Source: Carboxylicivirga linearis
Lineage (GTDB): Bacteria; Bacteroidota; Bacteroidia; Bacteroidales; Marinilabiliaceae
Direction of reading: 5' to 3'
Assembly (NCBI RefSeq): GCF_018271995.1
Contig: NZ_JAGUCO010000001.1
Location: 682,001 to 746,000 of the forward strand
Length of the DNA stretch: 64,000 bases
The notes beneath the pieces are model-generated. The model was given only the letters and a program-made list of their open reading frames with translations, was not told the DNA's origin and made no database searches. Below, piece by piece: positions 2,239 through 48,227 of the stretch. Numbering within the stretch: the first letter of the stretch is position 1; each line of letters opens with the position of its first letter. A program made the position numbers and the translations under genes.

Positions 2239-2259
2239 TAGTTCTTTATTTAGTTGATC

Positions 2260-3699
2260 ATGTGGACATTTATAGGTGCTATTCTGGCTTTAATACTAGG
2301 ATTTATTATTTACGGAAAATTTATTGAGCGTTTCTTTGGAGCTGATGATAACCGTAAAACACCGGCTATCGATAAGCCCGATGGTGTTGATTTTTCGCCC
2401 ATGCCAACCTGGAAAGTGTTTACCATTCAATTTTTAAATATTGCCGGATTGGGTCCAATCTTTGGTGCTATTATGGGTGCCAAATACGGACCCATGGCCT
2501 ATGTGTGGATTGTGTTGGGATGTATTTTTATGGGATCAGTTCACGACTACATGTCAGGTATGTTGTCCATTAGAAACGGAGGTGCCAGTATCCCCGAAAT
2601 TGTCGGTAAATATTTGGGGAAAGGATTTCAAAACTTCTTACGAATATTTACTGTTGTACTTCTCATATTTGTGGGAGTGGCCTTTGTTACCGGGCCTGCA
2701 GGGTTGTTGTCGACCTTTACCAAAGGAGGGAAAGAAATTTGGCTATACATCATTTTTGGATATTATTTAATCGCCACTTTATTACCTATCAATAAAATCA
2801 TAGGACGAATTTATCCAATCTTTGGTGCTACCCTTTTAATTATGGCTTTGGCAATTGGCGGAGCGATGTTTTGGGGTGGTTTTAGCGGATCTCTTCATTT
2901 ACCCGAATTATCAACACAAAGCTTTGCTAACTTCCATTCCAATCCTACCGAAAATATTTTGTTTCCCATGATGTTTATTGTCATTTCATGTGGGGCCATC
3001 AGTGGTTTTCATTCTACCCAAGCACCTTTAATGGCCCGAACCATCAAAAAAGAGAGTCATGGTCGGTATGTTTTTTATGGAGCCATGATTGCCGAAGGAA
3101 TAGTGGCCATGATTTGGGCTACAGCAGGAATGACATTTTTTGGAGGCCCTGAAGGTTTAAATGAAGCCATGGTACCCAAAGCGCATAATGCAGCGTGGGT
3201 GGTTAACGAAATAAGTGTGGCTTGGTTGGGAGCTGTGGGCGCCATATTTGCTATTATCGGTGTGATTGCTTGTCCGATAACCACCGGTGATACTGCTTTC
3301 AGAAGTGCACGCTTAACTATTGCCGATGTGTTTAATTACGATCAGGCAAAGATCTCTAAGCGATTGGTTATAAGTATTCCCTTGTTTGTGATCGGATATC
3401 TTTTAACTCAATTCGACTTTGATACTATCTGGAAGTATGTGGGTATTTCTAACCAGATATTAGCGGTTGTGATTTTATGGACGGGTGCTATGTATTTTGC
3501 CAAAGTGGGCAAATGGCACTGGTTGATGTCGGTTCCGGCAACCTTTATGACCACTATCTGCAGCTCGTATCTACTAGTAGCTCCTTTTAAAAATGGCGGA
3601 ATGGCCATTGATACCAGCATTGGATTATGGATTGGAAGTTTTGTTGGGCTTGCTTCTTTAGGTCTGTTCTTATTTAGAGCAAAAAGAGTTGCCGCATAA
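2260..3699 (+). CDS. cstA: CstA family carbon-starvation / peptide transporter
   Basis: An integral membrane protein of about 480 residues with more than ten hydrophobic segments. It has CstA family features: an N-terminal GKFIERFFGADD segment, FTIQFLNIAGLGPIFGAIMG after the first helices, and GAISGFHSTQAP in the middle. CstA proteins import peptides or pyruvate during carbon limitation; the substrate here is inferred from the family. It is shorter than the roughly 700-residue E. coli protein, as is usual for the compact form. A TTG two codons upstream (2254) would also be in frame, but ATG gives the expected MWTF start. It is monocistronic, with a convergent kinase gene downstream. Confidence 0.88.
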   Translation: MWTFIGAILALILGFIIYGKFIERFFGADDNRKTPAIDKPDGVDFSPMPTWKVFTIQFLNIAGLGPIFGAIMGAKYGPMAYVWIVLGCIFMGSVHDYMSGMLSIRNGGASIPEIVGKYLGKGFQNFLRIFTVVLLIFVGVAFVTGPAGLLSTFTKGGKEIWLYIIFGYYLIATLLPINKIIGRIYPIFGATLLIMALAIGGAMFWGGFSGSLHLPELSTQSFANFHSNPTENILFPMMFIVISCGAISGFHSTQAPLMARTIKKESHGRYVFYGAMIAEGIVAMIWATAGMTFFGGPEGLNEAMVPKAHNAAWVVNEISVAWLGAVGAIFAIIGVIACPITTGDTAFRSARLTIADVFNYDQAKISKRLVISIPLFVIGYLLTQFDFDTIWKYVGISNQILAVVILWTGAMYFAKVGKWHWLMSVPATFMTTICSSYLLVAPFKNGGMAIDTSIGLWIGSFVGLASLGLFLFRAKRVAA

Positions 3700-6675: not shown

Positions 6676-6716
6676 TATTGTTGGAATTACATACATAGGT
6701 GTTGGAAAATCCAACA
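6676..6716 (+). promoter_or_regulatory. Candidate binding site of the NtrC-type regulator, first operon
   Basis: TGTTGGAAAATCCAACA at 6700-6716 is a perfect palindrome with 7-bp arms. A weaker half-site, TATTGTTGGAA, lies 24 bp upstream (6676-6686). The same pair, with the same 24-bp offset, occurs at 16687-16727 before the second permease block. The position upstream of a sigma-54-like promoter suits an enhancer for the adjacent activator; the assignment is inference. Confidence 0.65.
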
Positions 6717-6770
6717 CAAGATAAATAGTAATTGGTATTAGTTTGCATTATATCAGTGAATTAAGATAAA

Positions 6771-6787
6771 GGCACGAGGTTTGGCAT
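6771..6787 (+). promoter_or_regulatory. Candidate sigma-54-type promoter before the adaptor gene
   Basis: GGCACGAGGTTTGGCAT resembles the -24/-12 GG...GC pattern of sigma-54 promoters, but GG and GC are 11 rather than 10 bases apart. It starts exactly 71 bp after the start of the palindrome and 41 bp before the ATG at 6812. Thirteen of 17 bases match the element at 16782. A second, weaker candidate (GG at 6734, GC at 6745) has nine bases between. Confidence 0.5.
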
Positions 6788-6811
6788 GTTATTTTCAAAT
6801 ACGAATGAACA

Positions 6812-8062
6812 ATGGACAGACAACTCGAACAAAAGCCTTGGTGGAAGAAAAATTTAAAATGGATTACCGGAGTAGCCATTTTCTTAATGTGTTGTATCTA
6901 TTTTATTGCTTTTGCCGATCATAGAAGTAGTGTGAAGATGGAAAGTGATCGTATAACTATTTCATCAGTTGAACAAGGCGATTTTCAGGATTATATAAGT
7001 GTGACAGCTACTGTTGAACCCATTAAAACCATTTATCTGGATGCCATTGAAGGGGGGCGAGTTGAGTCGATTTTGCTCGAAGAAGGTAAAATGGTTGAAA
7101 AGGGTGATCCTATTGCCCGCTTGAGTAATACCAACCTGATATTAGAGATTTCGAATAATGAAGCCAATGTGGCACGTGCCATCAACGAGTTGCGTACTGC
7201 CCGTTTGCAAATGGAAATGAATGCCATGGAATTGCAAAACCAGATTGTTAAGCTGGGTGGCGACTTATTTCTTCAGAAACGTAAGTATACCAATTCAAAA
7301 AACTTCTTTGCCGAAGGATTAATATCAGAAGATGAATATTTAAAAGATAAGACTGATTTTGAAGCTTCGGAACGTCAGATGACTTTATTGAAAGAGAGTT
7401 TTAAACGCGATTCGATCTATCGAAAAATACAAATTGAAACATTGGAGAGTTCTGCAGAGCGTATGGAAGAAAATCAAGACATTATTCGTCAGCGATTGGA
7501 TAACCTCACCATCAAAGCTCCGGTAACAGGCCAGTTGGCTGCTTTAAATCTCGAAGAAGGTCAGGTGATCAATTATGGAACGCGGGTTGGAAAAGTAAAT
7601 GTACTCGACGATTTTAAACTAAAAGCCAAAGTTGACGAACACTATATTTCGCGCATTCATAAAGGATTGAAAGGAAGTTGCCAGTTTCCATCGGGCGATA
7701 TTGAGGCAGAACTAACTAAAGTATATGCCGAGGTGGTTGAAGGTAAGTTTGAAGTGGATCTGACCTTTGACGAAACCATGCAAAAAGCCTTGCGCATTGG
7801 GCAAACCAGCTACGTTAAATTACAGTTAGGCGATCCTGTTCAGGCTATTTTACTTCCACGCGGAAGCTTTTTTCAGAGTACAGGTGGCCAGTGGGTATTT
7901 GTGTTGAATAAAGATCGTACGGCAGCTTATAAACGAGCCATTACCATTGGGCGTCAGAATCCAAAATACTTCGAAGTATTGGATGGATTGCAACCCGGCG
8001 AGGAAGTGATTACCTCGGGATACGAAGTTTTTGGCGATAATGAAGTGGTAATTTTAAACTAA
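6812..8062 (+). CDS. Periplasmic adaptor (HlyD/MacA-type) of an ABC export system
   Basis: 416 residues. One N-terminal membrane anchor (about 16-32) is followed by a biotinyl-lipoyl-like half domain (ESILLEEGKMVEKGDPIARL), a long coiled-coil hairpin (about 110-225), the second lipoyl half (IKAPVTGQLAALNLEEGQ) and beta-barrel/membrane-proximal domains. Adaptors of this family link an inner-membrane permease to an outer-membrane channel. It is the first gene after the operator/promoter at 6676-6787, and the first permease follows 28 bp later. No TolC-like gene lies in this array, so the outer-membrane partner must be encoded elsewhere, perhaps by the one at 44500. Confidence 0.88.
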   Translation: MDRQLEQKPWWKKNLKWITGVAIFLMCCIYFIAFADHRSSVKMESDRITISSVEQGDFQDYISVTATVEPIKTIYLDAIEGGRVESILLEEGKMVEKGDPIARLSNTNLILEISNNEANVARAINELRTARLQMEMNAMELQNQIVKLGGDLFLQKRKYTNSKNFFAEGLISEDEYLKDKTDFEASERQMTLLKESFKRDSIYRKIQIETLESSAERMEENQDIIRQRLDNLTIKAPVTGQLAALNLEEGQVINYGTRVGKVNVLDDFKLKAKVDEHYISRIHKGLKGSCQFPSGDIEAELTKVYAEVVEGKFEVDLTFDETMQKALRIGQTSYVKLQLGDPVQAILLPRGSFFQSTGGQWVFVLNKDRTAAYKRAITIGRQNPKYFEVLDGLQPGEEVITSGYEVFGDNEVVILN

Positions 8063-8090
8063 ACTCGAACAACGAACTCACAACTATAAT

Positions 8091-10493
8091 ATGTATCTAT
8101 TAAAAATAGCCTTCCGAAATCTGTTTCAAAAACAGCAACACTCTATTACTCGCATTATCTCATTAGCTGCCGGTTTAGCTTTTGGGATATTAATGCTCTC
8201 TGAGGTTTTTTATTATTACAGTTTCGATAGTTTTTATCCCGAAGCTAGTAGAGTTTATGTTGTTCAATCCAATGCCAGACTGTCGGATGATAATGCTGAA
8301 ATGGATGTATGGGATCGTACCAGTGGAGCAATTGCCCCGGGAATGAAGGATGAAGTGCCAGGAGTGGAAGTGGCAACACGATTAAATTCGATTGGCAACC
8401 TGATTTTTTATACTGCCGATCAGAAAAGTTACAAAGGGCGGTGTGTGCTGGCCGACGAATATGTGTACGATGTTATTCCCCGCAATATGTTGGTAGGTAA
8501 TGCTAAGGAAGCGATGCTAAAACCTTCGAACTGTATTATCTCAAGTAAAATTGCGGCTTCGATGGGGGATGATGCGGTTGGTAAAGTAATTGAGTTTAGA
8601 AAATATCCGGGAGTTCAACTAACAGTTGCCGGCGTGTTTGAAGCTCTTCCTGAAAACAGTAATTACAAGTACGATGTGTTAATATCAATGTCGTCGATTG
8701 CTCAGTTTTTTGATTGGGATGGATCAACCAATTGGTTGGGTAACGACCGGTATTACAGTTGTGTAAAACTAGATGCTGGCGTTAATCCAAAAGACCTGGC
8801 ACCAGCTATTCGAAAAATGCAGGAAAAACATCAGGATATCATAAAACTGGAGCAAGATCATGGTGGTGAACTGCTGAAATATACATTGATACCTATTCAA
8901 AAAGTTTATGTGAGTAGGATACAGGGAATGGTAATCATTTTAAGTACCATCGCACTTGCAGTGTTGTTTGTTTCGTTGATGAATTATGTATTGCTAACTT
9001 TTAGTAGCTTGATTAATCGGGCTAAAAGTTCGGCTGTTTATAAAACCTGCGGAGCCACAGCCAACGACCTAAAAAAAATTATATTTACCGAATCGTTTGT
9101 GTTTTTTGTATTAGCCCTGTCTGCAGCTCTGGTAATTTTAATGGCTGTAAAACCCCTTGTCGAAAATTTAGTGGCTCATAGTTTAGAGGCAACATTAAAC
9201 CAGTATGTATTGTGGCCAATAGTAGGAGTTTTAATCATCTTTGTTCTTTTATCGAGTTACTTTCCAGGGCGATTTTTTGCCAATATTCCAGTATCTGCTG
9301 CATTTCGCAATTACAAGCAAAAGAAGAATAAATGGAAGTTAGGATTGCTTTCGTTCCAATTTATTGGAGCTTCTTTTATCCTGACTCTTCTGGTTGTGGT
9401 AACTCTTCAGTATCATAAAATGATCAATGCCGATCATGGTTATCGTTCCCAAGGTGTTTATTACTGTTCGACAAATGGAATTGACGGAAGTAAACTGAAT
9501 ATGATAATGAATGAACTTCGGAAATTACCCGAAGTTGAAAAGGTGGGTATGGGCGAAGAAGTCCCGGTTTATCAGCAATCAGGAAATAATATTTACTCGC
9601 AAGACGGCAAGAAAGATCTGTTTAATATAGCCGACTTTTATAGTGTTGATGAGAACTACTTATCCATTCTTGATATAGATGTCACCAATGGCCGTGATTT
9701 TTCTACAAGCGGTATCAATAACAATGATGTGTTTATTAGCAAGAAGTGTGCTGAGTTATTAAAAATTCACAATCATTGGGAAGATGGTGTAATTGGGAAA
9801 GAAATTAAGGTTTCGGAACACCAAAGATCTACTATTAAAGGTGTATTCGACGATTTTATTATAGGTTCTATTGTAGAGCCGGATAAGCGACCATCCGTAT
9901 TTTTTTATCAGTCGGAAGAAGGATTCATCAGACAAAAAGAGAAATATCCTTCGATGGAGTTTAAACTGTTGGTTCAGGCAAAAACAGGTATGGAAGCTAA
10001 TATCAGAAATAAAATAAAGCAAGTGGTTGATATGGCTTTACCTAATAAAGATGCCGTTGTAAGAAGTCTGGAAGATGAGCAGTTTAATGGTTATCAGGCT
10101 CAATTAAGTTTCCGAAATGGTATGCTGGCAGGTAATGTGGTGGTATTTCTAATCACTATTATTGGTTTGATAGGCTATACTTCTACCGAAACAACCCGAC
10201 GTAGTAAAGAGCTGGCCATTCGACGAATCAGTGGTGCTTCAATTTCAGATTTAATAGTCAACTTTATTCTGGAGCTTCAGTATTTGGTTTTGCCATCGTT
10301 GCTGATCGGTTTGGGACTGGCATGGTTTATACTTACCAAATGGATGGAATCGTTTGCTCAAAAAATGCCTTTGCAGTGGTGGATCTTCTTGCTGTGCAGT
10401 ATAGGTATTTTATTAATGGTGGCCATTATTGCAATGATAAAATATTCGCGTATTGCATCTCGTAACCCGGTGGAATCTTTGCGATATGAATAA
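8091..10493 (+). CDS. MacB/FtsX-type ABC transporter permease (array member 1)
   Basis: 800 residues in the double-unit layout of Bacteroidota MacB-like permeases. An N-terminal helix (about 20-45) leads into a periplasmic MacB_PCD-type domain, then three helices (about 275-410). A second helix (about 420-445) leads into a second periplasmic domain and three C-terminal helices (about 680-790). The FtsX-type motif appears as STETTRRSKELAIRRISGAS and the protein ends NPVESLRYE, a tail shared by all five permeases here. These proteins transmit ATP-driven motion across the membrane to expel substrates from the periplasm (MacB-like mechanotransmission); the substrate is unknown. It probably pairs with the ATPase at 10648. 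Confidence 0.87.
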   Translation: MYLLKIAFRNLFQKQQHSITRIISLAAGLAFGILMLSEVFYYYSFDSFYPEASRVYVVQSNARLSDDNAEMDVWDRTSGAIAPGMKDEVPGVEVATRLNSIGNLIFYTADQKSYKGRCVLADEYVYDVIPRNMLVGNAKEAMLKPSNCIISSKIAASMGDDAVGKVIEFRKYPGVQLTVAGVFEALPENSNYKYDVLISMSSIAQFFDWDGSTNWLGNDRYYSCVKLDAGVNPKDLAPAIRKMQEKHQDIIKLEQDHGGELLKYTLIPIQKVYVSRIQGMVIILSTIALAVLFVSLMNYVLLTFSSLINRAKSSAVYKTCGATANDLKKIIFTESFVFFVLALSAALVILMAVKPLVENLVAHSLEATLNQYVLWPIVGVLIIFVLLSSYFPGRFFANIPVSAAFRNYKQKKNKWKLGLLSFQFIGASFILTLLVVVTLQYHKMINADHGYRSQGVYYCSTNGIDGSKLNMIMNELRKLPEVEKVGMGEEVPVYQQSGNNIYSQDGKKDLFNIADFYSVDENYLSILDIDVTNGRDFSTSGINNNDVFISKKCAELLKIHNHWEDGVIGKEIKVSEHQRSTIKGVFDDFIIGSIVEPDKRPSVFFYQSEEGFIRQKEKYPSMEFKLLVQAKTGMEANIRNKIKQVVDMALPNKDAVVRSLEDEQFNGYQAQLSFRNGMLAGNVVVFLITIIGLIGYTSTETTRRSKELAIRRISGASISDLIVNFILELQYLVLPSLLIGLGLAWFILTKWMESFAQKMPLQWWIFLLCSIGILLMVAIIAMIKYSRIASRNPVESLRYE

Positions 10494-10494
10494 C

Positions 10495-10590
10495 CATTTT
10501 TGTCACCCCTCTATCTCCCCCAAGGGGGAGAACCAGACAAAAACTATATGCACTGCATTAAAAGTCCCCCTGGGGGAATTTAGGGGTAAA
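10495..10590. repeat. Emptied copy of the DUF559-associated CCCCCAAGGGGG repeat
   Basis: Immediately after the permease stop codon come a hairpin CTCCCCCAAGGGGGAG (10515-10530) and, about 35 bp later, TCCCCCTGGGGGA (10565-10577). Outer arms ACCCCT (10505) and AGGGGT (10582) also pair. Its left end (TTTTTGTCACC...) and right end (AAAAGTCCCCCT...) match the ends of the element at 16146-16616, but no DUF559 gene lies between. It sits between two operon genes and might act as an mRNA processing or attenuation hairpin. Confidence 0.7.
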
Positions 10591-10647
10591 CGGAAGCTAA
10601 GAGAAGGCTAAGTGAGTTTGTTGAAATAAAAATTTAAAACCAAAACC

Positions 10648-11346
10648 ATGATACAACTGAACGACATTTTCAAGTACTACGATAACAAGTTTCAACGCAG
10701 TTATGTGTTAAAAGATTTTTGCCTGAACATCAACGAAGGCGAATTTGTATCCATTATGGGCCCCAGTGGTGCTGGTAAATCAACCCTGTTAAATATTATT
10801 GGTATGCTGGATGTGGCTGATGATGGCGAATATTTCTTTATGGATCAACCAGCACATAAACTGAGTGATAAAAAGAAAGTAGAGTTTCATCGGAACTATG
10901 TGGGATTTATTTTTCAGGCCTTTCATTTGATTGATGAAATGACGGTTGCTGAAAATATTGAGACTCCATTGATTTATAAAGGTGTTAAATCGAAAGAACG
11001 CAAAGCTATGGTGGCCGATTTGCTCGACCGATTTAATATGGTGGCTAAAAAAGATCTGTTTCCAGCTCAACTATCAGGAGGTCAGCAACAGTTGGTAGGA
11101 ATCGCCCGCGCAATAATTAGCAAGCCTAAATTACTTTTAGCCGATGAGCCTACGGGAAATCTTCATTCCGACCAAGGAAAAGAAATTATGAAGCTGTTGA
11201 AAAAGCTGAATGAAGAGGAAGGAATAACCATTATTCAGGTTACGCACAACGAGGAATTTGCTCAATACGGAAAACGTATTATTCGCATCGAAGATGGTAT
11301 GAAGAAGAGTGACTTACCTGTGGCTACTTTGCTAGAGCAAGTGTAA
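10648..11346 (+). CDS. ABC transporter ATPase, LolD/MacB type, with altered D-loop
   Basis: 232 residues, the usual length. Walker A GPSGAGKST, Q-loop region FIFQAF, signature LSGGQQQ, Walker B LLLADEPTGN and H-loop VTHNEEF are all present. Two positions are unusual for the family: the D-loop reads GNLHS instead of GNLDS (Asp to His), and the segment after the signature is QQLVGIARA instead of QQRVAFARA. The ATPase at 21544 has the canonical versions. Whether this lowers ATP turnover or marks a heterodimer with the second ATPase cannot be told from sequence. It is flanked by permeases on the same strand. Confidence 0.9.
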   Translation: MIQLNDIFKYYDNKFQRSYVLKDFCLNINEGEFVSIMGPSGAGKSTLLNIIGMLDVADDGEYFFMDQPAHKLSDKKKVEFHRNYVGFIFQAFHLIDEMTVAENIETPLIYKGVKSKERKAMVADLLDRFNMVAKKDLFPAQLSGGQQQLVGIARAIISKPKLLLADEPTGNLHSDQGKEIMKLLKKLNEEEGITIIQVTHNEEFAQYGKRIIRIEDGMKKSDLPVATLLEQV

Positions 11347-11375
11347 TACATTACCAAACCTATAAAACTATACCA

Positions 11376-13706
11376 ATGTTACGTTTCCGACTTTTAATGG
11401 CTATCCGAAATCTATTAAACGATAAGTTAAATGGATCACTTATAATAGGTGGTTTCGCCATAGGGTTTACAGCCTGTATTCTGATTGGGCTCTTTCTCTT
11501 ATCGGAGCATAGGGTAAATAAAGTGTTCAGTAATTCAGAGAATATATATCGTATTTATGATGCTAAAAATAAAACCGAAATGCTGGATTACAGTTTGTAT
11601 CCGAAACTTTGGAAGGAATACCCTGAAATTGAAGATGCTTGTCCTATGGAATATAGTAGTGGATTTCCAATTGTGGTAAAAGATGCTGAGTTGGATGTCA
11701 GTGCCAGGTTAGACCAGATTATCGGAACAACAGATAACTTTTTCGATATCTTTTCTGTTAAAGTGATTTCTTGTCTTTCTGATAAACCTTTTGCTTTCGA
11801 TAAATCAATAGTGATTACCAAATCGGTTGCCAAACAAATGTATGGTTCCATAAATCCGTTAGGGCGAACGCTAAAAACTGACTTTTTTGAAGGTACAATT
11901 ACGGCAGTAATAGAAGACTTACCTCGAATGGCTAGTTTTCAAGCTCAACTTATTATCAATACTGACTTCGAAGAATTCCGTTTATCTCAGTCATGTAACG
12001 ATGGTAAATGTTGGTATGTGACACCCCATTTTGTAATATTAAATAAATCTGTTGTTCCCGAGCAACTTGCTAATAAAATCAATTCATCGATTAAAGATAT
12101 TAGTGTTCATGTTGATAGTCTGGCTTTTCAAAATATTGAAGATATTTACCTTTCAAAACTTCAAATGAAGGACGCACATGCCAAAGGAAACTCTAATGTG
12201 TTGTCTGTTTTTCTTGCTATTGGCATCTTGATTTTGCTTCTGTCAAGCATTAACTATATCAATTTTACAATTTCAAGGCAATTCAGTAAACTTAAAGAAT
12301 TTGGTATAAAAAAGATTAATGGAGCCAATGCTACAAACCTGTTTTTAGGGGCCTTCATTGAAGTATCGTTGGGAATTATTATTTCTGCTTGTATTGCCAT
12401 ATTGCTTACTGCACTTATTTTGCCGCATTCAGCCAGCTTGTTTGGCAAGGAGATTCATTTTGCTGATGTGAATGCGGGAGTGGCTGTTGCTTTAATGCTT
12501 AGTGTAATTGTACTTGTAGTTTTAATGAATTGTATGGCTCCTGTTTATATGTTTACACGTTTTAAAATAATCGATTTCCTTGCAGGGAGCAGTAAGCATA
12601 ACAGAAAACAAATCGGAAGACAAGTCATGCTTACTTTTCAGATGGTCGCATCAATCATACTTATTGCAAGTGTGTTAACCATTTTTAAACAACTTGAATA
12701 TGTAAAACATTTCAATCTTGGTTTTAATAAAGAGCAGCTTGTACGTTTTGATTTACCTTATACCTACGAGTCTCCATCAACCATAAAAGAGGAGATTGGG
12801 AAGTTGCCATTTGTGGTAAGTAGCACATTAAGTGACGGATATCCCGGGCACGTGAAACTTCGGATGGGAAGTGGTGAAGGTGAAAATAATTTTAAGATGC
12901 ACTGTATTACAATCTCAGACGATTATCTGGAAACGATGGGAATTAAACTGAAAGATGGTCGTAAATTTCATAGAGGAGATCAAAACAGTGCATGTATAAT
13001 TAACGAGGAAGCTTATAAGCGTTTTGGATGGAATAGCACAGAGAATAAAATATATCAGCAAGGTAGGAATGGAGGTTATCAGGTTCTGGGTGTTGTTGAG
13101 GATTTTAATACTCAATCGTTGCATGCAGGCATTGAACCTGTCGCCTTATTGTATCGTGCTGACGTTCCTTTTGGAACCCTTTCGGTAAGGTTGGCTCCCG
13201 GTAATGTATCACTTCAGCTTAAAGGCATTGAGCAGGCATGGAAAAGAATTCTACCACACGAACCTATGTATTTTACTTTTTACGATCAGCAGTTTCAGGC
13301 TATGTACCAAAAAGAAGAGCGGTTGGCGCGATCTGTTTCTTTCTTTTCGATTATTGCCATTGTGTTAACATGTATGGGGATTTTGGGACAGATTCTGTTA
13401 GTCAGTTTTGCTCGCACCAAAGAAATCGGCATCCGAAAAGTAAACGGAGCTAAAATATCCGAAATACTTACCCTGCTTAACAAAGACTTTATCAAATGGG
13501 TAGCCATTGCTTTTGTTATTGCAACACCCATAGCCTGGTTTGCCATGAATAAGTGGCTCGAGAATTTTGCCTATAAAACCAACCTTAGCTGGTGGATATT
13601 TGCCTTAGCAGGATTATTTGCCTTAGCAATTGCCTTACTTACCGTTTCCTATCAATCGTGGAAAGCAGCTGTGAAAAATCCGGTGGAGGTGTTGAGGTAT
13701 GAGTAA
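11376..13706 (+). CDS. MacB/FtsX-type ABC transporter permease (array member 2)
   Basis: 776 residues with the same two-unit layout: N-terminal helix (about 20-45), periplasmic domain, three helices (about 280-395), another helix near 425 and periplasmic domain, then three C-terminal helices. It ends NPVEVLRYE. It follows the ATPase gene by 29 bp, so the two are cotranscribed. Close to the C-terminus a 41-residue stretch beginning RTKEIGIRKVNG is identical to member 3, far more alike than the rest of the two proteins. Substrate unknown. Confidence 0.87.
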   Translation: MLRFRLLMAIRNLLNDKLNGSLIIGGFAIGFTACILIGLFLLSEHRVNKVFSNSENIYRIYDAKNKTEMLDYSLYPKLWKEYPEIEDACPMEYSSGFPIVVKDAELDVSARLDQIIGTTDNFFDIFSVKVISCLSDKPFAFDKSIVITKSVAKQMYGSINPLGRTLKTDFFEGTITAVIEDLPRMASFQAQLIINTDFEEFRLSQSCNDGKCWYVTPHFVILNKSVVPEQLANKINSSIKDISVHVDSLAFQNIEDIYLSKLQMKDAHAKGNSNVLSVFLAIGILILLLSSINYINFTISRQFSKLKEFGIKKINGANATNLFLGAFIEVSLGIIISACIAILLTALILPHSASLFGKEIHFADVNAGVAVALMLSVIVLVVLMNCMAPVYMFTRFKIIDFLAGSSKHNRKQIGRQVMLTFQMVASIILIASVLTIFKQLEYVKHFNLGFNKEQLVRFDLPYTYESPSTIKEEIGKLPFVVSSTLSDGYPGHVKLRMGSGEGENNFKMHCITISDDYLETMGIKLKDGRKFHRGDQNSACIINEEAYKRFGWNSTENKIYQQGRNGGYQVLGVVEDFNTQSLHAGIEPVALLYRADVPFGTLSVRLAPGNVSLQLKGIEQAWKRILPHEPMYFTFYDQQFQAMYQKEERLARSVSFFSIIAIVLTCMGILGQILLVSFARTKEIGIRKVNGAKISEILTLLNKDFIKWVAIAFVIATPIAWFAMNKWLENFAYKTNLSWWIFALAGLFALAIALLTVSYQSWKAAVKNPVEVLRYE

Positions 13707-13814
13707 AAGAGAGTGAGGATATCAGAGTATAGTTTGTAAGCTTTGAGAACCGAAAACCAATAGACAAACAACTGTAAGGGTAAGAATAAATAATTAATAA
13801 AGTCATCCAAATTT

Positions 13815-16145
13815 ATGTTGCCAATGAATCTCAAATATGCATTTCGAACAATAATGAAACAAAAAGTCAAGACAAGTATAGGTATTGCTGGTTTTGCTGT
13901 TGGTTTTTCAGTGTTTATTACTACTCTACTTTTTGTAAATCGAGAGTATAACATAGATACCTGTTACGATAATTATAAAAATATATACAGAATAACAGAA
14001 AACTCATCAGGCAAAAGGAATGCTGACCTTGACTATGATTTGTATGATATTTTAAAAGAGCATTACTCGGGTATTGAGATGGTTTGTCCAGTTAGGCAAA
14101 AGGGGAAGTGGCCATTTATGTTTCGAACCAATAAAACATTTATTAAAACTTCATCTTTTGTAAGTACGACCAATGATTTTTTCAAAATGTTTTCAATAAA
14201 AACGGTCAAGCGTTCAGGCAAGGAGCCTTTTGCTAATGAGAATTCTGTAGTATTAACTCAATCAACAGCTGCCAAATTATTTCCAAATCAAGAACCCTTA
14301 GGAGAATCGATAGTCTTTATGGGTGGGATTCAATTAACAGTAACTGCTATAATAGAAGATTTGCCTGATGGAAGCAGCTTTTCGGCTGATTTATTATTGA
14401 ATGCGGAGAATTCAGGTTTGCGCTTTGGAAAAATAAGAAAAAATGGAAAGGGTATTAATCCCATTAATCATTTTATACAACTGGGTAATGACGTAGATTA
14501 TAAGCAGGTTGAGCAAGCTATAAATAAAACTCTTGCAAAGTATTCAATTCATGATGATCCAATTGTTTTACAGCCTATTCAAGATATCTATCTTAGTGAT
14601 AAGATAATCGGTGATTATAATAAGAAAGGGAATAGGCAATTAATAATATTATTAGAGGGTATTGCAATCCTTATTTTATTAGTTGCTTTTATTAATTATA
14701 TCCATTTTATTTTATCAATGCAGTTGTCAACAAAGAAAGCTGTTGTTATAAAACGGATTCATGGAATTTCAATAAGAAGCCTTTATTCGTATTTTTTATC
14801 TGAGTCATTGCTTTTGATAGGAGCTTCTTTACTACTGGCTTTTGTTTTTGCTATATTTCAATTGCCATTAATAAATAGTATTTTTAAAATAGACCTTAAT
14901 ATAAAACAGGTTTTTAATCCTACATTAATAGCAATTTGGGGAGGAGTTATATTATTTATTATTCTATTATTATCTTTTTTTTCTGTTAAAAGTGCTACCC
15001 GAAAGACCAAAAATGGAAACCTTGTATCCGAATATTCTAAAGGATCAATTTCGTATAAATCAATATTAACCACCTTTCAATTAGCTGTTTCAATAATCTT
15101 AATAGCTTGTGCGATTGTGGTTAATATGCAACTAAAATTTATGAAGGACCATTCTTTAGGTTTTGATTCCGAACAATTAGTTAGAATAGATTTACCTTCT
15201 ACTTTTAATTCGTTTCAAGTATTAAAAGATAAAGTAAATCAACTTGCTTTTGTAAAGAATAGTTCATGGAGTAATGGTGCTCCCGGGTATATCAATAACA
15301 CAAGTAGATTGCAAATAGGTGAGAAAACAATTTTGTTGAATGGTATATATGGAGATAAAGATTTCCTTAATACAATGAATATAAAACGTATTGAAGGAAG
15401 TGATTTTTGGGATTCAGGAAAAGATACTTTATGTATGGTTAACGAATCTTTTATGAAGGAAAGTGGCTGTAAAACGTTGGATGATCTTTGGCAATTAAAC
15501 AAAAAGATAGAAGGAAGATTTAAAATAGTTGGTGTGGTAGAAGATTTTAGTATTACTTCTTTTCATTCCTTGATTGAGCCTTGTTATATAGCTTTTGCAG
15601 AGGAAAACCATTGTTTTTTAAATGTTCGGTTGTCCCAAGGGAATATACCAGAAATGATTAGGCAACTAAAGAAAGTTTGGAATGAAATTATTCCTAATCA
15701 ACCTTTTGAGGTAGTGTTTTATGATGATCATTTTGATTCCTTATATAAAAAAGAAGAAAGATATGGAACAGCTGTGCTTTATTTGTCATTGATAACAATA
15801 TTAATCACTTGCCTGGGGATACTTGGACAGATTATACATTGTTCGATAATTCGCACAAAAGAAATCGGCATCCGCAAAGTAAACGGTGCTAAAATATCAG
15901 AGATTCTTACCCTGCTTAACAAAGACTTTATCAAATGGGTTGCCATTGCTTTTGTAATAGCTACACCCATCGCTTATTATTCTATGAATCTTTGGCTTCA
16001 GAATTTCGCTTATAAAACTGAACTGAGTTGGTGGATCTTTGCTCTGGCTGGCATTCTAGCCCTCGGAATTGCTCTGTTAACAGTGAGTTGGCAGAGCTGG
16101 CGGGCAGCCACAAGGAATCCGGTGGAGGCGTTGAGGTATGAGTAA
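13815..16145 (+). CDS. MacB/FtsX-type ABC transporter permease (array member 3)
   Basis: 776 residues from ATG 13815; the in-frame ATG at 13824 (MNLKYAFRTI) is equally plausible and aligns better with the other members' starts. The two-unit permease layout is intact and the tail is NPVEALRYE. The first two thirds are visibly richer in A+T and more diverged than the neighbouring permeases, while the last 130 residues closely match member 2. This suggests a divergent paralogue whose 3' end is kept similar by gene conversion or selection. A DUF559-type repeat element begins directly after its stop codon. Confidence 0.85.
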   Translation: MLPMNLKYAFRTIMKQKVKTSIGIAGFAVGFSVFITTLLFVNREYNIDTCYDNYKNIYRITENSSGKRNADLDYDLYDILKEHYSGIEMVCPVRQKGKWPFMFRTNKTFIKTSSFVSTTNDFFKMFSIKTVKRSGKEPFANENSVVLTQSTAAKLFPNQEPLGESIVFMGGIQLTVTAIIEDLPDGSSFSADLLLNAENSGLRFGKIRKNGKGINPINHFIQLGNDVDYKQVEQAINKTLAKYSIHDDPIVLQPIQDIYLSDKIIGDYNKKGNRQLIILLEGIAILILLVAFINYIHFILSMQLSTKKAVVIKRIHGISIRSLYSYFLSESLLLIGASLLLAFVFAIFQLPLINSIFKIDLNIKQVFNPTLIAIWGGVILFIILLLSFFSVKSATRKTKNGNLVSEYSKGSISYKSILTTFQLAVSIILIACAIVVNMQLKFMKDHSLGFDSEQLVRIDLPSTFNSFQVLKDKVNQLAFVKNSSWSNGAPGYINNTSRLQIGEKTILLNGIYGDKDFLNTMNIKRIEGSDFWDSGKDTLCMVNESFMKESGCKTLDDLWQLNKKIEGRFKIVGVVEDFSITSFHSLIEPCYIAFAEENHCFLNVRLSQGNIPEMIRQLKKVWNEIIPNQPFEVVFYDDHFDSLYKKEERYGTAVLYLSLITILITCLGILGQIIHCSIIRTKEIGIRKVNGAKISEILTLLNKDFIKWVAIAFVIATPIAYYSMNLWLQNFAYKTELSWWIFALAGILALGIALLTVSWQSWRAATRNPVEALRYE

Positions 16146-16616
16146 CCGTTTTTGTCACCTCTCTAACTCCCCCAAGGGGGAGAACCGAACAAAAACTAAA
16201 TAATAGCTAAAATGAATGAACTTGATAAGACAATGTATTTCGGAGCAAAACCAGGTATTTTAGAAAAGGCAAAAGCTTTAAGAAAAAATATGACAGGTGC
16301 AGAAAAGTTATCATGGGATAGGTTAAAGAATAAACAAGTTTTAAACTTAAGGTTCTGAAGGCAGCATCCTATTGATATTTTCATTGCTGATTTTTATTGT
16401 CATCAAGCAAGATTGGTTATTGAAGTAGATGGTAAAATTCATGAGAGTCAAAAAGAATATGATAGAGGACGATCGGTAGAATTGGAACGTTTTTATATAC
16501 AGGTTATCCGGTTTAGTAACCAAGAAGTTGAAAATAATATAGATAATGTAATTGAAAAAATAAACACAGCGATTATAAACCGGCTCAAAAGTCCCCCTTG
16601 GGGGATTTAGGGGGAG
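16146..16616 (+). mobile_element. DUF559-type repeat element (filled copy)
   Basis: The left end (TTTTTGTCACC followed by CTCCCCCAAGGGGGAG) and right end (AAAAGTCCCCCTTGGGGGA, then TTTAGGGGG) are inverted G/C-rich hairpins matching the emptied copy at 10495-10590. Between them is a DUF559 endonuclease-like gene. Both copies start directly after the stop codon of a permease gene. DUF559 genes bounded by such CCCCCAAGGGGG repeats are, as I recall, widespread in Bacteroidota. Transposition has not been shown here, so 'mobile' is inference. Confidence 0.6.
16212..16610 (+). pseudogene. DUF559 endonuclease-like protein, interrupted by an in-frame TGA
   Basis: Reading from ATG 16212 gives MNELDKTMYFGAKPG... 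then a TGA at 16356-16358 (codon 49), after which the frame continues to TAG 16608-16610 (133 codons in all). The TGA sits in '...LNLRF*RQHPIDIF', where the family normally has Arg, so a single CGA-to-TGA change explains it. Downstream, the endonuclease-like core (FIADFYCHQARLVIEVDGKIH) is preserved, so decay is recent. The last residues (KSPPWGI) are encoded by the element's terminal repeat. DUF559 is related to very-short-patch-repair type nucleases; its role here is unknown. Confidence 0.75.
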
Positions 16617-16617
16617 G

Positions 16618-16647
16618 AATTCGGTGGAGGTGTTACGTTACGAATAA
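16618..16647 (+). pseudogene. Ghost 3' end of a deleted MacB/FtsX permease gene
   Basis: The frame AAT TCG GTG GAG GTG TTA CGT TAC GAA TAA encodes NSVEVLRYE followed by a stop. This matches the last nine residues of every permease in the array (NPVE[V/A/S]LRYE). Nothing upstream in this frame matches a permease; it abuts the right end of the DUF559 element. It is best read as the remnant of a sixth permease lost in an insertion/deletion event. Too short to be functional. Confidence 0.6.
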
Positions 16648-16686
16648 GACATTTAATAAGATCTGACACAACAATATGAAATACAA

Positions 16687-16727
16687 TATTGTAGGAAATA
16701 AATACACCAGTGTTGGATATTCCAACA
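16687..16727 (+). promoter_or_regulatory. Candidate binding site of the NtrC-type regulator, second operon
   Basis: TGTTGGATATTCCAACA at 16711-16727 has the same 7-bp arms as the palindrome at 6700. TATTGTAGGAA at 16687-16697 lies 24 bp upstream, the same offset as in the first operon. Confidence 0.65.
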
Positions 16728-16781
16728 GTTGAAAAATGATTTGAGTTTTTAACAAGTACATATTCAGTGTGTTATAATTGA

Positions 16782-16798
16782 GGTATAAGATTTGGCAT
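16782..16798 (+). promoter_or_regulatory. Candidate sigma-54-type promoter before permease 4
   Basis: GGTATAAGATTTGGCAT matches 13 of 17 bases of the element at 6771. It also starts exactly 71 bp after the start of its palindrome, and lies 47 bp before ATG 16829. GG and GC are again 11 bases apart. Confidence 0.5.
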
Positions 16799-16828
16799 AG
16801 TTAAAATAGATTTATAAAGTAGCAGATT

Positions 16829-19147
16829 ATGAAGAGGCAGTATATATTATGTGCTTTCCGAAGCATCAAAAGAAATAAAATACCCAGCTTTATTAACATT
16901 GTTGGTTTAGCTATTGGATTAAGTACTGCTCTTTTTGCTTTACTATTCTCATACTATGAGTTTACATACGAAAGAGGGCATGATAAATATGAGCAAATAG
17001 CGAAGGTAATCACCTTTGGTAATTTTGGTGCTTTCTCGGAATTGCCAAGTAGTTTTCCACAAACTGCCATTGATTTACCAGCTAACTTTCCCGAAATAAC
17101 AGATGGGGTATGTAGCTTTCAATTACCTTCTATCTTTTTTAAAGATAATGTGCCTTTAACCGAATCAAATATTGTATTGGCGCAGGAAAGATTCATGGAA
17201 ATTTTTACATATCAATTTATCTCAGGACAGATTTATTCTGATGATGATGAGTCTTTATGCCTATCGGAGTCAATGGCAAAGAAATATTTTGGCAAAAATA
17301 ATGCTGTAGGCAAGTTGTTGAAGGCGAATTTAAATGGTCATGAAGTAATGCTGACTGTAGCTGGCGTTTTTAAAGATCTACCGGGTAATACACATTTAAA
17401 AACCGATGCTATTGTATCGTGGAATTTGGCTAAACAGGTTTTGAACAATCCCGAAGGTTACCTTACAACCGATTACGATATTTACTGTTTGGTAACTCCT
17501 CATACAGATATAAAAAAGCTGAACAAGAAGATTGCGACTAATTTTAAATTTCCATCAAAAATTGAAGATTGTACGGTTGCATTAATGCCTATCACTGACT
17601 TTCACTTGAACAGTGTTTTCGAAAATAATAAAGCCAATTTATACATATTGTTTATTGGTGGATTATTATCCTTGATGCTATCCATATTAAATTACGTTAG
17701 TCAGTCATCCATAATGTATACCACTCGCATAAAGGAAGTAGGTATACGCCTTTCGAATGGCGCTAAAGCAAAAGATATTTTTAGTCAGTTTATGACCGAT
17801 ACTGCAGTGGTTACATTGCTAGGGTTTGGACTGGCTCTGGTAATTGTATATCAAGGTTTGCCCTATTTTAATTCGATGATGGATACAGATTTAACCTTAC
17901 TCTTTAATTCAACAGTGATGGGTTTAATTGCTGTTCTTTTTATCATCACAGTGTTTCTGGCCGGATTCTATCCTTCAATGCTAATGTCGAGATTCAAGCC
18001 CGTGTTATTATTGAGGTCATCGTTTGGTGACACAACAGGTAAAAGCCGAATACGCAATGTAATGTCAACCTCTCAGTTTGTTGTGGCAATTTTATTAATT
18101 CAGCTAATGATCGTTAGCCATAAGCAAGCCGGATATTTAGACCGTGATGAGGTGGTTGGGTTTAATGCTGATAATGTAATAAGCATTAATGGCCATAATT
18201 GGGGCGATTTGAATAAAATAAAAAGTGAAGTATTACTGAATACGGCAATTGAATCTGTAACCTGGAGCCAGAATATGCCGGCTATGCAAGCCAGTTTTAC
18301 TTCTAATTGGAAGATGGAAGATAATACTCAAATGACAAATATGTTTGTTTGCGAAGCCGACTTTTTAAATCTGTTTCATATTCGTATGAATAAAGGGCGC
18401 TTTTTCTTGTCCGATCGTGAAACAGATAAAGACAACTCAATTGTGATAAATGAATTAATGGCTAGTAACATGGGATGGGACGAACCTTTAGGTAAACAAT
18501 TGATGGTATGGGATAAAATGTATACCGTAATTGGGGTAGTAAGTAATTATATGGCTGCGCCGCCTATATTTGAAGATACTCCTTTAATTATAAGGCGTGC
18601 TGGCAATAAGGCAAACCGACTTATTTTTCGCATCAATCCCGGTAAAAAGAAAGAAGCCTATGAGCATATTACACATGTTTTGCGTGAAGCTAATCCCAAT
18701 TATCCAATTAACTTAAAATCGTACGAAGATTCAACATCACAAGGAGCTAAATCATTTTATAGAACGGTAACATTAATCAACATTTTCGTGTTAATTGTTA
18801 TTCTCAATGCTTTTCTGTCGCTTTTTGGTTTATCGTATTTTATTGCTGAGCGTAATAAAAAGCAAATAGGGATTAACAAAATATTTGGTGCATCGGTAGC
18901 TACCATCTATTGGAAGCTCTCGAAGAATTTGATGCTTCGTTTTGCTATTGCATTTATTATTGTTACACCCATATCGTATTTTATAAGTAACCAATACCTT
19001 ACAACCTTTTCGTATCAAATACCTATAACAGCCGATATATATATTATTAGTGGTTGTTTAGTTTTGATGATGCTGTTGGTTTCAACGGGTTTTAAAATTA
19101 TTACAGCTGCTAATCGAAACCCTGTAGATGCCTTACGTTACGAATAA
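16829..19147 (+). CDS. MacB/FtsX-type ABC transporter permease (array member 4)
   Basis: 772 residues with the array's two-unit architecture: N-terminal helix about 20-42, helices around 270-400, a further helix near 415-430 and three C-terminal helices. The tail is NPVDALRYE. It is the first gene of a second transcription block that has its own operator and sigma-54-like promoter (16687-16798). The next permease begins 37 bp after its stop. Substrate unknown; shared control with the first block suggests a common or stepwise export function. Confidence 0.86.
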   Translation: MKRQYILCAFRSIKRNKIPSFINIVGLAIGLSTALFALLFSYYEFTYERGHDKYEQIAKVITFGNFGAFSELPSSFPQTAIDLPANFPEITDGVCSFQLPSIFFKDNVPLTESNIVLAQERFMEIFTYQFISGQIYSDDDESLCLSESMAKKYFGKNNAVGKLLKANLNGHEVMLTVAGVFKDLPGNTHLKTDAIVSWNLAKQVLNNPEGYLTTDYDIYCLVTPHTDIKKLNKKIATNFKFPSKIEDCTVALMPITDFHLNSVFENNKANLYILFIGGLLSLMLSILNYVSQSSIMYTTRIKEVGIRLSNGAKAKDIFSQFMTDTAVVTLLGFGLALVIVYQGLPYFNSMMDTDLTLLFNSTVMGLIAVLFIITVFLAGFYPSMLMSRFKPVLLLRSSFGDTTGKSRIRNVMSTSQFVVAILLIQLMIVSHKQAGYLDRDEVVGFNADNVISINGHNWGDLNKIKSEVLLNTAIESVTWSQNMPAMQASFTSNWKMEDNTQMTNMFVCEADFLNLFHIRMNKGRFFLSDRETDKDNSIVINELMASNMGWDEPLGKQLMVWDKMYTVIGVVSNYMAAPPIFEDTPLIIRRAGNKANRLIFRINPGKKKEAYEHITHVLREANPNYPINLKSYEDSTSQGAKSFYRTVTLINIFVLIVILNAFLSLFGLSYFIAERNKKQIGINKIFGASVATIYWKLSKNLMLRFAIAFIIVTPISYFISNQYLTTFSYQIPITADIYIISGCLVLMMLLVSTGFKIITAANRNPVDALRYE

Positions 19148-21543: not shown

Positions 21544-22257
21544 ATGTTACAAACAAAGAATCTACAAAAGATATTCAGAACAGAGGAAGTTGAAACAACG
21601 GCTTTAAATAATGTGAATATTCATGTGAAGAAAGGCGAATTTGTTGCCATTATGGGACCATCAGGTTGTGGTAAATCAACTTTGCTGAATATTATTGGCT
21701 TGCTGGATAATCCATCGGAAGGCGAATTGTATTTTGATGGCTTGGAAATCTCGAAGTTCAAAGAACGTCAGCGTACTGATTTACGTAAAGGAAACATTGG
21801 ATTTGTATTCCAAAGTTTTAACCTGATTGATGAATTAACCGTTTTTGAAAACATCGAGATGCCTTTGATCTACCTGAAATTATCGGCCAAGGAGCGCAGA
21901 GAGCGTGTACAAAAAGTAATGGAGCGTATGCAAATAGCTCATCGTGCCAAACACTTTCCTCAACAATTATCGGGTGGTCAGCAACAAAGGGTTGCCTTTG
22001 CTCGTGCTGTAGTAGCCAATCCTAAATTGATATTAGCCGATGAGCCTACAGGTAACTTGGATTCGAAAAACGGAGCAGAAGTAATGAATCTGTTACGTCA
22101 GCTAAACGAAGAAGGAACCACCGTTGTAATGGTGACTCACTCTGCCGAACATGCCGAGTATGCACACCGCACCATCAACCTTTTTGACGGACATATTGTA
22201 ACCGAGAAAATGAATGGATCTATGGCACCTAAAAACCTGGTTAACGAAAATATTTAA
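21544..22257 (+). CDS. ABC transporter ATPase, LolD/MacB type (canonical)
   Basis: 237 residues with Walker A GPSGCGKST, signature LSGGQQQRVAFARA, Walker B LILADEPTGN, D-loop NLDS and H-loop VTHSAEH, all intact. It is the last transporter gene of the array and the likely motor for permeases 4 and 5. It may also serve permeases of the first block, whose own ATPase has an altered D-loop. Confidence 0.93.
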   Translation: MLQTKNLQKIFRTEEVETTALNNVNIHVKKGEFVAIMGPSGCGKSTLLNIIGLLDNPSEGELYFDGLEISKFKERQRTDLRKGNIGFVFQSFNLIDELTVFENIEMPLIYLKLSAKERRERVQKVMERMQIAHRAKHFPQQLSGGQQQRVAFARAVVANPKLILADEPTGNLDSKNGAEVMNLLRQLNEEGTTVVMVTHSAEHAEYAHRTINLFDGHIVTEKMNGSMAPKNLVNENI

Positions 22258-46451: not shown

Positions 46452-48227
46452 ATGAAGGATATCAATAAAAAAAGGACAGGAACCCTTATTTCCATCCAGG
46501 ATTCGTTGGTGAAGGCACGATTCTTTGATGATGTGATAATGGGGGAGACTGCTGAGATTTCCGTCGATGGGAAATTTCTTCAGGCAGAAGTCTTGCAGAT
46601 TCAACCTGATCCGAAAAATGCCGACGCTGGCATTGTTGAAATGCAGGTTTTTGAAGATTTAACCGGTGCCAAAATTGGTGATGAGGTCGTATTTAAAGGT
46701 ACACCTTTGTCCGTTTTGTTAGGGCCGGGACTCTTAACCAGTGTATGGGATGGACTTCAAAACCCCTTGTATAAACTAAGTGAAGAAGATTCGTATTTGA
46801 AACCGGGTATGAATGCCCCGGCCTTAAACGAAGAGACATTATGGGACTTTACTCCAAGTGTAAAAGTTGGTGATTCAGTTTCTGGAGGCGATGTTATAGG
46901 TTCAGTTCCTGAAGGAAAAGTGGACCACAAAATTTTGGTTCCATTTAGCTTTGGTGCTTGTACGGTTGAAAGCATTATCGAAAAGAGTTCGGTAAACATC
47001 ACTCAGCAAGTAGCTATTGTGGTTGATGAACTAGGTAATAAGCATGAGCTGAAATTAGCTTTTCGTCAGCCGGTAAAAGCGCCTATTCCATTTAAAGAGC
47101 GTGCTATCCCAACAAAACCTATTTCTACAGGAACCCGAGTTATTGATCTATTAGCTCCTGTTGGATATGGAGGTACAGTTGGTAACCCTGGTCCTTTTGG
47201 AGCAGGTAAAACAGTATTACAGCACTCGCTTTGTAAATATGCTGTAGCTGACATTATTATTATGGCTGCCTGTGGTGAACGTGCCGGTGAAGCGGTTGAG
47301 GTATTTAAAGAATTTGCAGAGTTGGAAGATCCAACAACAGGTGAGTCTTTAATGAATCGTATGTGTATTTTCGGTAATACCAGTTCAATGCCTGTAGCAG
47401 CTCGTGAGGCTTCAGTATTTATCGCATTAACAGTGGGTGAATATTACCGTTATCAAGGTAAAAAAGTAGTAATGTTAGCTGACTCAACATCTCGTTGGGC
47501 ACAGGCATTACGCGAGCGTAGTGGTCGTCAGGGTGATATTCCCGGACCAGAGGCTTTCCCAATGGATATTCCAGATCAGATTAAGGGTATGTACCAACGT
47601 GCAGGTGATGATTTAGGTACCGAAGGTTCATTAACTTTTATTGGTACTGTATCGCCAGCGGGTGGTAACTTCCAGGAGCCGGTAACACAGGCAACAATGG
47701 ATGCAACCGGTGGTTTCTGGGGACTTTCTCAGGATCGTGCCGATGCTAAAAAATATCCAGCCATCGATCCTTTGGTGTATACAACTTCGGTTTATAACGG
47801 ATTTGTATCATGGAAAGATCGCCAGAACATGATTAGTGCATTAAGAACAGCAAACGATATTGATCAAACCATTAGTACCATTGGTTTGAAAAAAGTACCT
47901 GTTTCAAATTATATACAATTTCAAAAAGGTCAAACCATCGACTTCTGTGTAATGCAGCAAGATGCTTTTGACAAAGTTGATGCTTGTACTCGTCCCGAAC
48001 GTTTAGAAGTAATCAATGAAGCGGTTCAGAATTTAATTAGCAGCAATATTGATTTTGAAGCTGGCGAAATGGATGATGAACAATTAAAAGAGTCAATCAA
48101 GCAGAAGTTTGATGAGCTGCGTCAGTGGTGGCGCGATTGGAACTATTCAGCTACCACCGAAGAGCAATTAGCTCAGTTGCCAGGCGCAGTTAATAAATTT
48201 ATTTTACAGGAGGAATACGCCGTATGA
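46452..48227 (+). CDS. ntpA: V-type ATPase subunit A (catalytic)
   Basis: 591 residues, normal for V/A-type A subunits. The P-loop G247-P-F-G-A-G-K-T254 and the 'GERAGEAVEVFKEF' and 'SRWAQALRERSGR' segments identify the catalytic subunit. The inserted non-homologous region typical of A subunits is present. It hydrolyses or makes ATP in the hexameric head. It starts the operon A-B-E-DUF2764-D-I-K; the next gene overlaps its stop codon (ATGA). Confidence 0.96.
   Translation: MKDINKKRTGTLISIQDSLVKARFFDDVIMGETAEISVDGKFLQAEVLQIQPDPKNADAGIVEMQVFEDLTGAKIGDEVVFKGTPLSVLLGPGLLTSVWDGLQNPLYKLSEEDSYLKPGMNAPALNEETLWDFTPSVKVGDSVSGGDVIGSVPEGKVDHKILVPFSFGACTVESIIEKSSVNITQQVAIVVDELGNKHELKLAFRQPVKAPIPFKERAIPTKPISTGTRVIDLLAPVGYGGTVGNPGPFGAGKTVLQHSLCKYAVADIIIMAACGERAGEAVEVFKEFAELEDPTTGESLMNRMCIFGNTSSMPVAAREASVFIALTVGEYYRYQGKKVVMLADSTSRWAQALRERSGRQGDIPGPEAFPMDIPDQIKGMYQRAGDDLGTEGSLTFIGTVSPAGGNFQEPVTQATMDATGGFWGLSQDRADAKKYPAIDPLVYTTSVYNGFVSWKDRQNMISALRTANDIDQTISTIGLKKVPVSNYIQFQKGQTIDFCVMQQDAFDKVDACTRPERLEVINEAVQNLISSNIDFEAGEMDDEQLKESIKQKFDELRQWWRDWNYSATTEEQLAQLPGAVNKFILQEEYAV
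48208..48213 (+). promoter_or_regulatory. Strong ribosome-binding site before subunit B
   Basis: AGGAGG lies 10 bp before ATG 48224, inside the end of the A gene. Such a full Shine-Dalgarno is rare elsewhere in this window and supports translational coupling. Confidence 0.6.

Follow-up and report, generated by a model that had tools for sequence, protein, structure and literature searches.

The two regulatory regions that precede the transporter blocks of Carboxylicivirga linearis are, with high confidence, enhancer-promoter modules for sigma-54 that belong to a single small and dedicated regulon, predicted to be run by the adjacent NtrC-family regulator. Both are located in the window, the stretch of 64,000 nucleotides that was analysed, and the switch of the transporter blocks is very probably operated by this neighbouring two-component regulator, judging from the sequence. 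An earlier note on this DNA had proposed that the dyads are enhancers of the regulator and that both blocks form one regulon. This core claim stands as a well-supported prediction, backed by the conservation of the layout, the matching phyletic distribution of the genes and the domains of the regulator. The features are listed in Table 1.

Table 1. Regulatory elements and genes of the predicted regulon, with positions in the window.
Feature	Position	Strand	Remarks
Sensor histidine kinase, 441 aa	3783..5108	-	two N-terminal membrane helices, weak PAS match, HATPase
NtrC-family response regulator, 456 aa	5098..6468	-	receiver, sigma-54 AAA+, Fis-type HTH; recognition helix GINRSTLYDKIKKYDL
Upstream weaker dyad, block 1, TGTTGGAATTACATACA	6679..6695	+	half-site of the earlier note; centre about -109 from predicted start
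Main dyad, block 1, TGTTGGAAAATCCAACA	6700..6716	+	centre about -88 from predicted start
Putative sigma-54-type promoter, block 1, GGCACGAGGTTTGG	6771..6784	+	GG-N10-GG; transcript start predicted near 6796
HlyD/DarC-like periplasmic adaptor	6812..8062	+	first gene of block 1
MacB_PCD/FtsX permease P1	8091..10493	+	block 1
ABC ATPase A1 (DarD/LolD-like)	10648..11346	+	block 1
Permease P2	11376..13706	+	last ~294 bp closely common to several paralogs
Permease P3	13815..16145	+	no close counterpart in relative G001
Upstream weaker dyad, block 2, TGTAGGAAATAAATACA	16690..16706	+	
Main dyad, block 2, TGTTGGATATTCCAACA	16711..16727	+	
Putative sigma-54-type promoter, block 2, GGTATAAGATTTGG	16782..16795	+	weak -24 half; transcript start predicted near 16807
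Permease P4	16829..19147	+	first gene of block 2
Permease P5	19185..21506	+	no close counterpart in relative G001
ABC ATPase A2 (DarD/LolD-like)	21544..22257	+	block 2

Each of the two regions contains a main dyad, read directly from the sequence, an upstream site and a promoter-like element. The motif TATTGTwGGAA (at 6676 and 16687) starts 24 bp upstream of the palindrome, and the motif GGyAyrAGrTTTGGCAT (at 6771 and 16782) starts 71 bp downstream of it. The three features lie where the earlier note had placed them, and both offsets are identical in the two regions. By pattern search, each of these two motifs is confined to the same two places within the window. The upstream motif had been described as a half-site. 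Its position is correct, but it is really part of a second, weaker dyad, with outer arms TGT-N11-ACA.

The palindrome TGTTGGA-N3-TCCAACA has five matches in the window with up to two mismatches, two of them exact, compared to 0.27 expected from shuffled sequences. In the whole genome (G000, 6.05 Mb), five palindromes are found with at most one mismatch, and only the copies at 6700 and 16711 are exact. The other three, at 47320, C104:508289 and C104:327026, are all located inside open reading frames. The first of these (47320-47336, within the open reading frame 46452-48227) is probably a chance occurrence. That at C104:327026 is in an open frame of 193 codons, and both the upstream dyad and a matching promoter are missing there. 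The tandem-site pattern has two exact matches in the genome, and its sole further match, with three mismatches, is one of the three palindromes in open reading frames. A larger regulon in this genome was rejected on these grounds.

The layout is conserved well beyond this organism. A search with the adaptor sequence in 60 genomes gave a match in 36, including 11 of the 14 members of the genus. The earlier note had named the lack of the layout before orthologous arrays as the result that would count against it. The layout (two dyads and the -24 element, with the same geometry) is instead present at all 11 adaptor loci of the genus and at two loci in other genera (G032 and G022). Within the 14 genomes of the genus, regulator orthologs are confined to the 11 that have the adaptor; in the other three, G005, G006 and G008, neither gene was found. 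The 13 adaptor loci and the copies before the second block of G000 and G001 form a set of 15 elements. In all 15 the upstream site is a 17-bp dyad with the TGT and ACA arms, 21 bp upstream of the main dyad, and the distance from the end of the main dyad to the -24 GG is exactly 54 bp. The distance from this GG to the ATG takes 10 different values, from 40 to 164. The consensus of the main dyad is TGTYGGA-N3-YCCRACA, and that of the upstream dyad is mostly TGTTGGA-N7-ACA.

The spacer between the main dyad and the promoter has a mean pairwise identity of 40%, compared to 29% for shuffled sequences (12 elements, with three near-duplicates dropped). A few of its columns are conserved, and it is not fully randomised. 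Because of this residual conservation, drift of the spacer without insertions or deletions is only partly tested by this set, and the orthologs in it do not count as independent events. The spacers were also searched with the IHF consensus. The sequence WATCARNNNNTTR is a perfect match in the block-1 spacer of C. linearis and is found on the other strand in G032, but 13 of the 15 spacers are without it, most of them scoring no better than shuffled sequences, and assistance by IHF-induced bending was rejected.

The geometry also emerges when the gaps are left free. With 40-70 bp allowed for the first gap and 3-8 for the second, 14 sites are found in 12 of the 71 family genomes, and within the genus 12 sites in 10 of the 14 genomes; the control pattern has no match in either case. 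The matches are 86 or 87 bases long, in agreement with the 54-bp gap. The element in G002 is missed by this pattern because its -12 part reads CTTGGAT. Thirteen of the 30 adaptor loci examined have the layout, and at the other 17, with adaptors of at most 53% identity, the dyad patterns are unmatched within 300 bp. The 30 loci leave out eight further adaptor matches, the region of one of which is covered by locus L130. A search of a collection with named genomes gave 13 loci: 11 close ones (seven named Carboxylicivirga, three Marinilabiliaceae and one Bacteroidales) and two remote ones (25% and 21%), which were not used. The regulator gene was likewise considered for a sigma-54 promoter of its own, and this was rejected, as the GG-N10-GC candidate in C. 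linearis and G001 is not conserved across 12 loci.

The promoter-like elements of C. linearis had been said to differ from the sigma-54 consensus by one extra base between GG and GC. The base count is right, and the spacing reading is probably wrong. The gap from GG to GC is 11 in six of the 15 elements (two each in C. linearis and G001, one each in G032 and G022) and 10 in eight genus members, while the element of G002 has GA instead of GC. We consider it likely that the C. linearis promoters have the normal N10 spacing, with GG at -13/-12 replacing GC. When the elements are anchored in this way, the -24 GG and the -13 G are present in all 15, and position -12 is C in eight, G in six and A in one. 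In a paralogous regulon (see below), position -13 is G in 28 of 28 promoters, and position -12 is G in 13, A in 11, T in four and C in none; these promoters come from a single orthologous locus in 14 genomes, one for each direction, and are not independent of each other. A matrix derived from them gives both C. linearis promoters a score of 4.5 with N10 and -6.0 with N11, although the matrix is narrow, as the eight N10-GC elements score -6.0 at N10. The alternative is a true 11-bp gap between GG and GC, with an RpoN that tolerates either 10 or 11. The distribution of the gaps would fit with it, and the definition in passages of PMC12316311, where five to seven bases separate TGGCAC and TGC, would admit N11. 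We regard it as unlikely, because the invariant -13 G, the lack of C at -12 in the paralogous promoters and the preference of the matrix, narrow as it is, all argue for N10.

The two promoters differ in how well they score. The -24 half scores 0.2 in block 2, compared to 6.2 in block 1, and among 127,964 positions in the window the block-1 promoter ranks 8th and the block-2 promoter 131st. A scan of the block-2 region finds a sigma-70-like match, TTAACA-18-TATAAT (11 of 12 positions), at 16749-16778, overlapping the second module, and a search for terminator-like sites between the blocks, at 16100-16850, found none. Given these two observations, block 2 may be transcribed by read-through from block 1 or from another promoter. 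A genome-wide count of canonical promoters gave 94 matches over all gaps and 24 for the reversed pattern, with coding and intergenic matches not separable.

The elements could also be promoters for the housekeeping sigma factor, with the regulator serving as an ordinary activator or repressor. The -7 motif of Bacteroidota is TAnnTTTG, and most of the elements have TTTG in common with it; the sigma-70-like site in the second module points in the same direction. This reading is nevertheless very unlikely, as TAnnTTTG is absent around the element in all 15 cases, the GG and the G ten bases further on are invariant, and the regulator has a sigma-54 AAA+ domain.

By its domains the regulator is sigma-54-linked, as the earlier note had it. 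Profile matches are observed for PF00072, PF00158 (229 bits) and PF02954, comprising the receiver, sigma-54 AAA+ and Fis-type HTH domains, and the genome has one match for RpoN (PF04552, 183 bits). The AAA+ loop reads GAFTDA, one residue off the textbook GAFTGA. The genome contains 16 matches for PF00158, ten of them with at least 220 bits and six weak. The recognition helix, GINRSTLY[DE]KIK[KR]Y, is found in all 12 regulators compared that are associated with this dyad (the regulator of G013 is outside this set).

A paralogous regulator in the same genome is 50.7% identical, has GLTRTSLYRR in its recognition helix, and faces an ATPase and a permease gene. Its intergenic region contains the dyad TGTTCG-N4-CGwACR and two sigma-54-type elements, one for each direction, in 14 of 14 genus genomes. 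The distance from dyad to GG is 81/82 bp in five genomes and 92/93 bp in nine, a step of one helical turn. In this system (L083:7591-7903 and L103-L116), dyad-like sequences are also present directly before the ATPase start codon. A third system, upstream of the regulator in G003 (L130), has TGTAAA-N5-TTTACA twice, 22 bp apart. The nearer dyad is 73 bp before a GGCAC element. Its centre is 65 bp from GG, which misses a whole number of turns by 2 bp. Two further loci are more distant: L089 has a single dyad with its centre 95.5 bp before GG, roughly nine turns, and no clean dyad was found at L088. Measured from the dyad centre to GG, the distances 63, 73.5-74.5 and 84.5-85.5 bp come near six, seven and eight turns of 10.5 bp.

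Another protein than the adjacent regulator might bind the dyads, with the NtrC-type gene next to them being incidental. This is likewise very unlikely, as the adaptor and the regulator co-occur in the same 11 of the 14 genus genomes and the recognition helix tracks the type of dyad across two paralogous systems. That the two regions are alike merely as a recent duplicate, for which one could cite the 85 identical bases among the 160 aligned, is hardly credible, as the layout is found again in 13 genomes and the spacers, unlike the sites, have diverged.

The mechanism that best explains the adjacent regulator and the conserved sites would start with the membrane kinase, which would phosphorylate the regulator. 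The kinase has membrane helices at residues 5-33 and 35-55, with nearly no loop between them, and may sense its signal inside the membrane or via a partner. The phosphorylated regulator would bind both 17-bp dyads, the centres of which are 21 bp, or two helical turns, apart, and this would nucleate the AAA+ ring. Through a loop of about 60 bp, the ring would then reach RpoN polymerase on the same face of the helix, at GGYAY-N5-TKGV (GG-N10-G, with G at -13), and open the promoter. Module 1 would drive the genes for the adaptor, P1, A1, P2 and P3, and module 2 those for P4, P5 and A2. A loop of this size is well below the length needed for free bending of DNA, and this would account for the rigid spacing. 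The 54-bp distance would be kept despite drift in the sequence because a short loop forces the enhancer to face the promoter.

The kinase and regulator genes overlap by 11 bases and face block 1. On their other side, positions 2254-3699 encode a multi-membrane protein, presumably resembling the carbon starvation protein CstA, a homolog of which also adjoins the kinase in G001, G002 and G004. In the NCBIfam collection, the ATPases and the adaptor are nearest to DarD and DarC, and the permeases to ADOP and DarB; the darobactin exporter DarB-DarC-DarD and ADOP are among the best family matches. All of the scores are below the curated cut-offs, however: 195.9 against 450 bits for DarC, 255.7 and 293.8 against 375 bits for DarD, at most 97.5 against 700 bits for DarB, and 142.7 to 187.7 against 622.3 bits for ADOP (TIGR03434). 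With the broad RND_mfp adaptor model, the adaptor scores above the cut-off. Moreover, there are several permeases per ATPase here, another difference from the darobactin and ADOP systems. Two short open frames are located between the blocks at 16212-16610, which we take to resemble a broken DUF559-type gene.

The permeases behind the switch show large differences between close relatives. The DNA of C. linearis and G001 is 96.0-96.5% identical through the flank and block 1, and 88% across the region of P4 and A2. Identity is 97.5-99.6% for the kinase, the regulator, the adaptor, both ATPases, P1 and P2, and 91% for P4. In comparison, the best matches in G001 for P3 and P5 have only 41% and 30% identity. 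The array of G001 (L076 and L077) has 10 permease frames, one of them cut by a sequence boundary, compared to five in C. linearis. At the other genus loci, covered as far as about 10 kb beyond the adaptor, identity is 76-80% for the adaptor, 87-92% for the ATPases and 25-32% for the permeases, except for three permeases at about 54%.

The permeases of block 1 other than P1 share their 3′ ends. Among the paralogs in C. linearis and G001, the last 294 bases are 67-94% identical, with the proteins 27-46% identical overall. These tails cover 13413-13706 in P2 and 15852-16145 in P3 of C. linearis; P1 is without the shared tail (46-53%). At four-fold degenerate sites, 10 of 39 differ in the pair of P2 and g4, compared to 9 of 41 between the P2 orthologs, and there are more differences in other pairs of tails (16 of 40 and 19 of 35). 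From the alignments, the 3′ ends look like products of recombination or gene conversion, and selection for a shared contact with the ATPase could add to their likeness. The 3′ segment of P2 occurs in C. linearis only at P2 and P3. In G001 it is found at seven places of the array, with one 38-base match elsewhere, and it was not found in G009. The idea of silent permease cassettes elsewhere was rejected on these results.

A possible, tentative explanation is that of a cassette array, in which a single kinase-regulator pair, a single adaptor and the shared ATPases would be kept. The permeases would be exchanged and recombined via their near-identical 3′ ends, so that close relatives would have different repertoires under the same control, and long arrays would have an additional enhancer-promoter module. 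Two narrow searches of open-licence literature returned, among the matches listed, no paper that apparently describes such arrays.

The switch itself has known counterparts. In Vibrio, the qrr enhancers have tandem sites, and their loop lengths change in steps of about 11 bp, according to passages of PMC4740811; helically phased sigma-54 enhancers are therefore already known. LuxO-qrr shares with the system described here an NtrC-like activator, tandem sites, a loop of short length to a single sigma-54 promoter, and the steps of about 11 bp in loop length. Loops of this kind, constant or stepped by a turn, are what is observed here, with 54 bp in 15 of 15 elements and 81/82 or 92/93 bp in the paralogous system; the G003 system is 2 bp off. 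On the other hand, the same passages give small RNA genes as the qrr targets and loops that cluster at about 80 to 120 bp, whereas the focal system has a shorter loop of a single length and acts on ABC transporter arrays. In Desulfovibrio, the largest fraction of promoters is within 100 bases of an activator site, according to passages of PMC4641369. Taken together, these stepped tandem sites and short distances (PMC4740811, PMC4641369) make the principle of the switch a known one. In the sigma-54 regulome of Desulfovibrio vulgaris, however, the distances vary and some of the sites are downstream, and the main text of PMC4641369 contains no words starting with TGTCGG or TGTTGG.

For Bacteroidia, passages of PMC12316311 report that COG0577 permeases are enriched behind predicted sigma-54 promoters. 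The likeness to the present blocks is in ABC-type permeases of the antimicrobial-peptide class behind predicted sigma-54 promoters in this class of bacteria. These passages name neither an enhancer motif nor a regulator or spacing for this system, though, and Carboxylicivirga is absent from the main text. The matches listed in the literature search contain no description of this particular regulon.

The analysis provides a specific operator, promoter and regulator for one sigma-54 regulon of Bacteroidota, where general predictions exist already (passages of PMC12316311). The constant 54-bp loop, together with the one-turn steps in the paralogous system, provides a natural setting in which helical phasing could be tested for this phylum. 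The turnover of permeases behind the switch is less ordinary than the switch, and the array deserves more attention. The regulon offers a handle on these fast-changing transporter arrays and, if the cassette-array reading is true, the module would serve in defence or export and be subject to arms-race selection.
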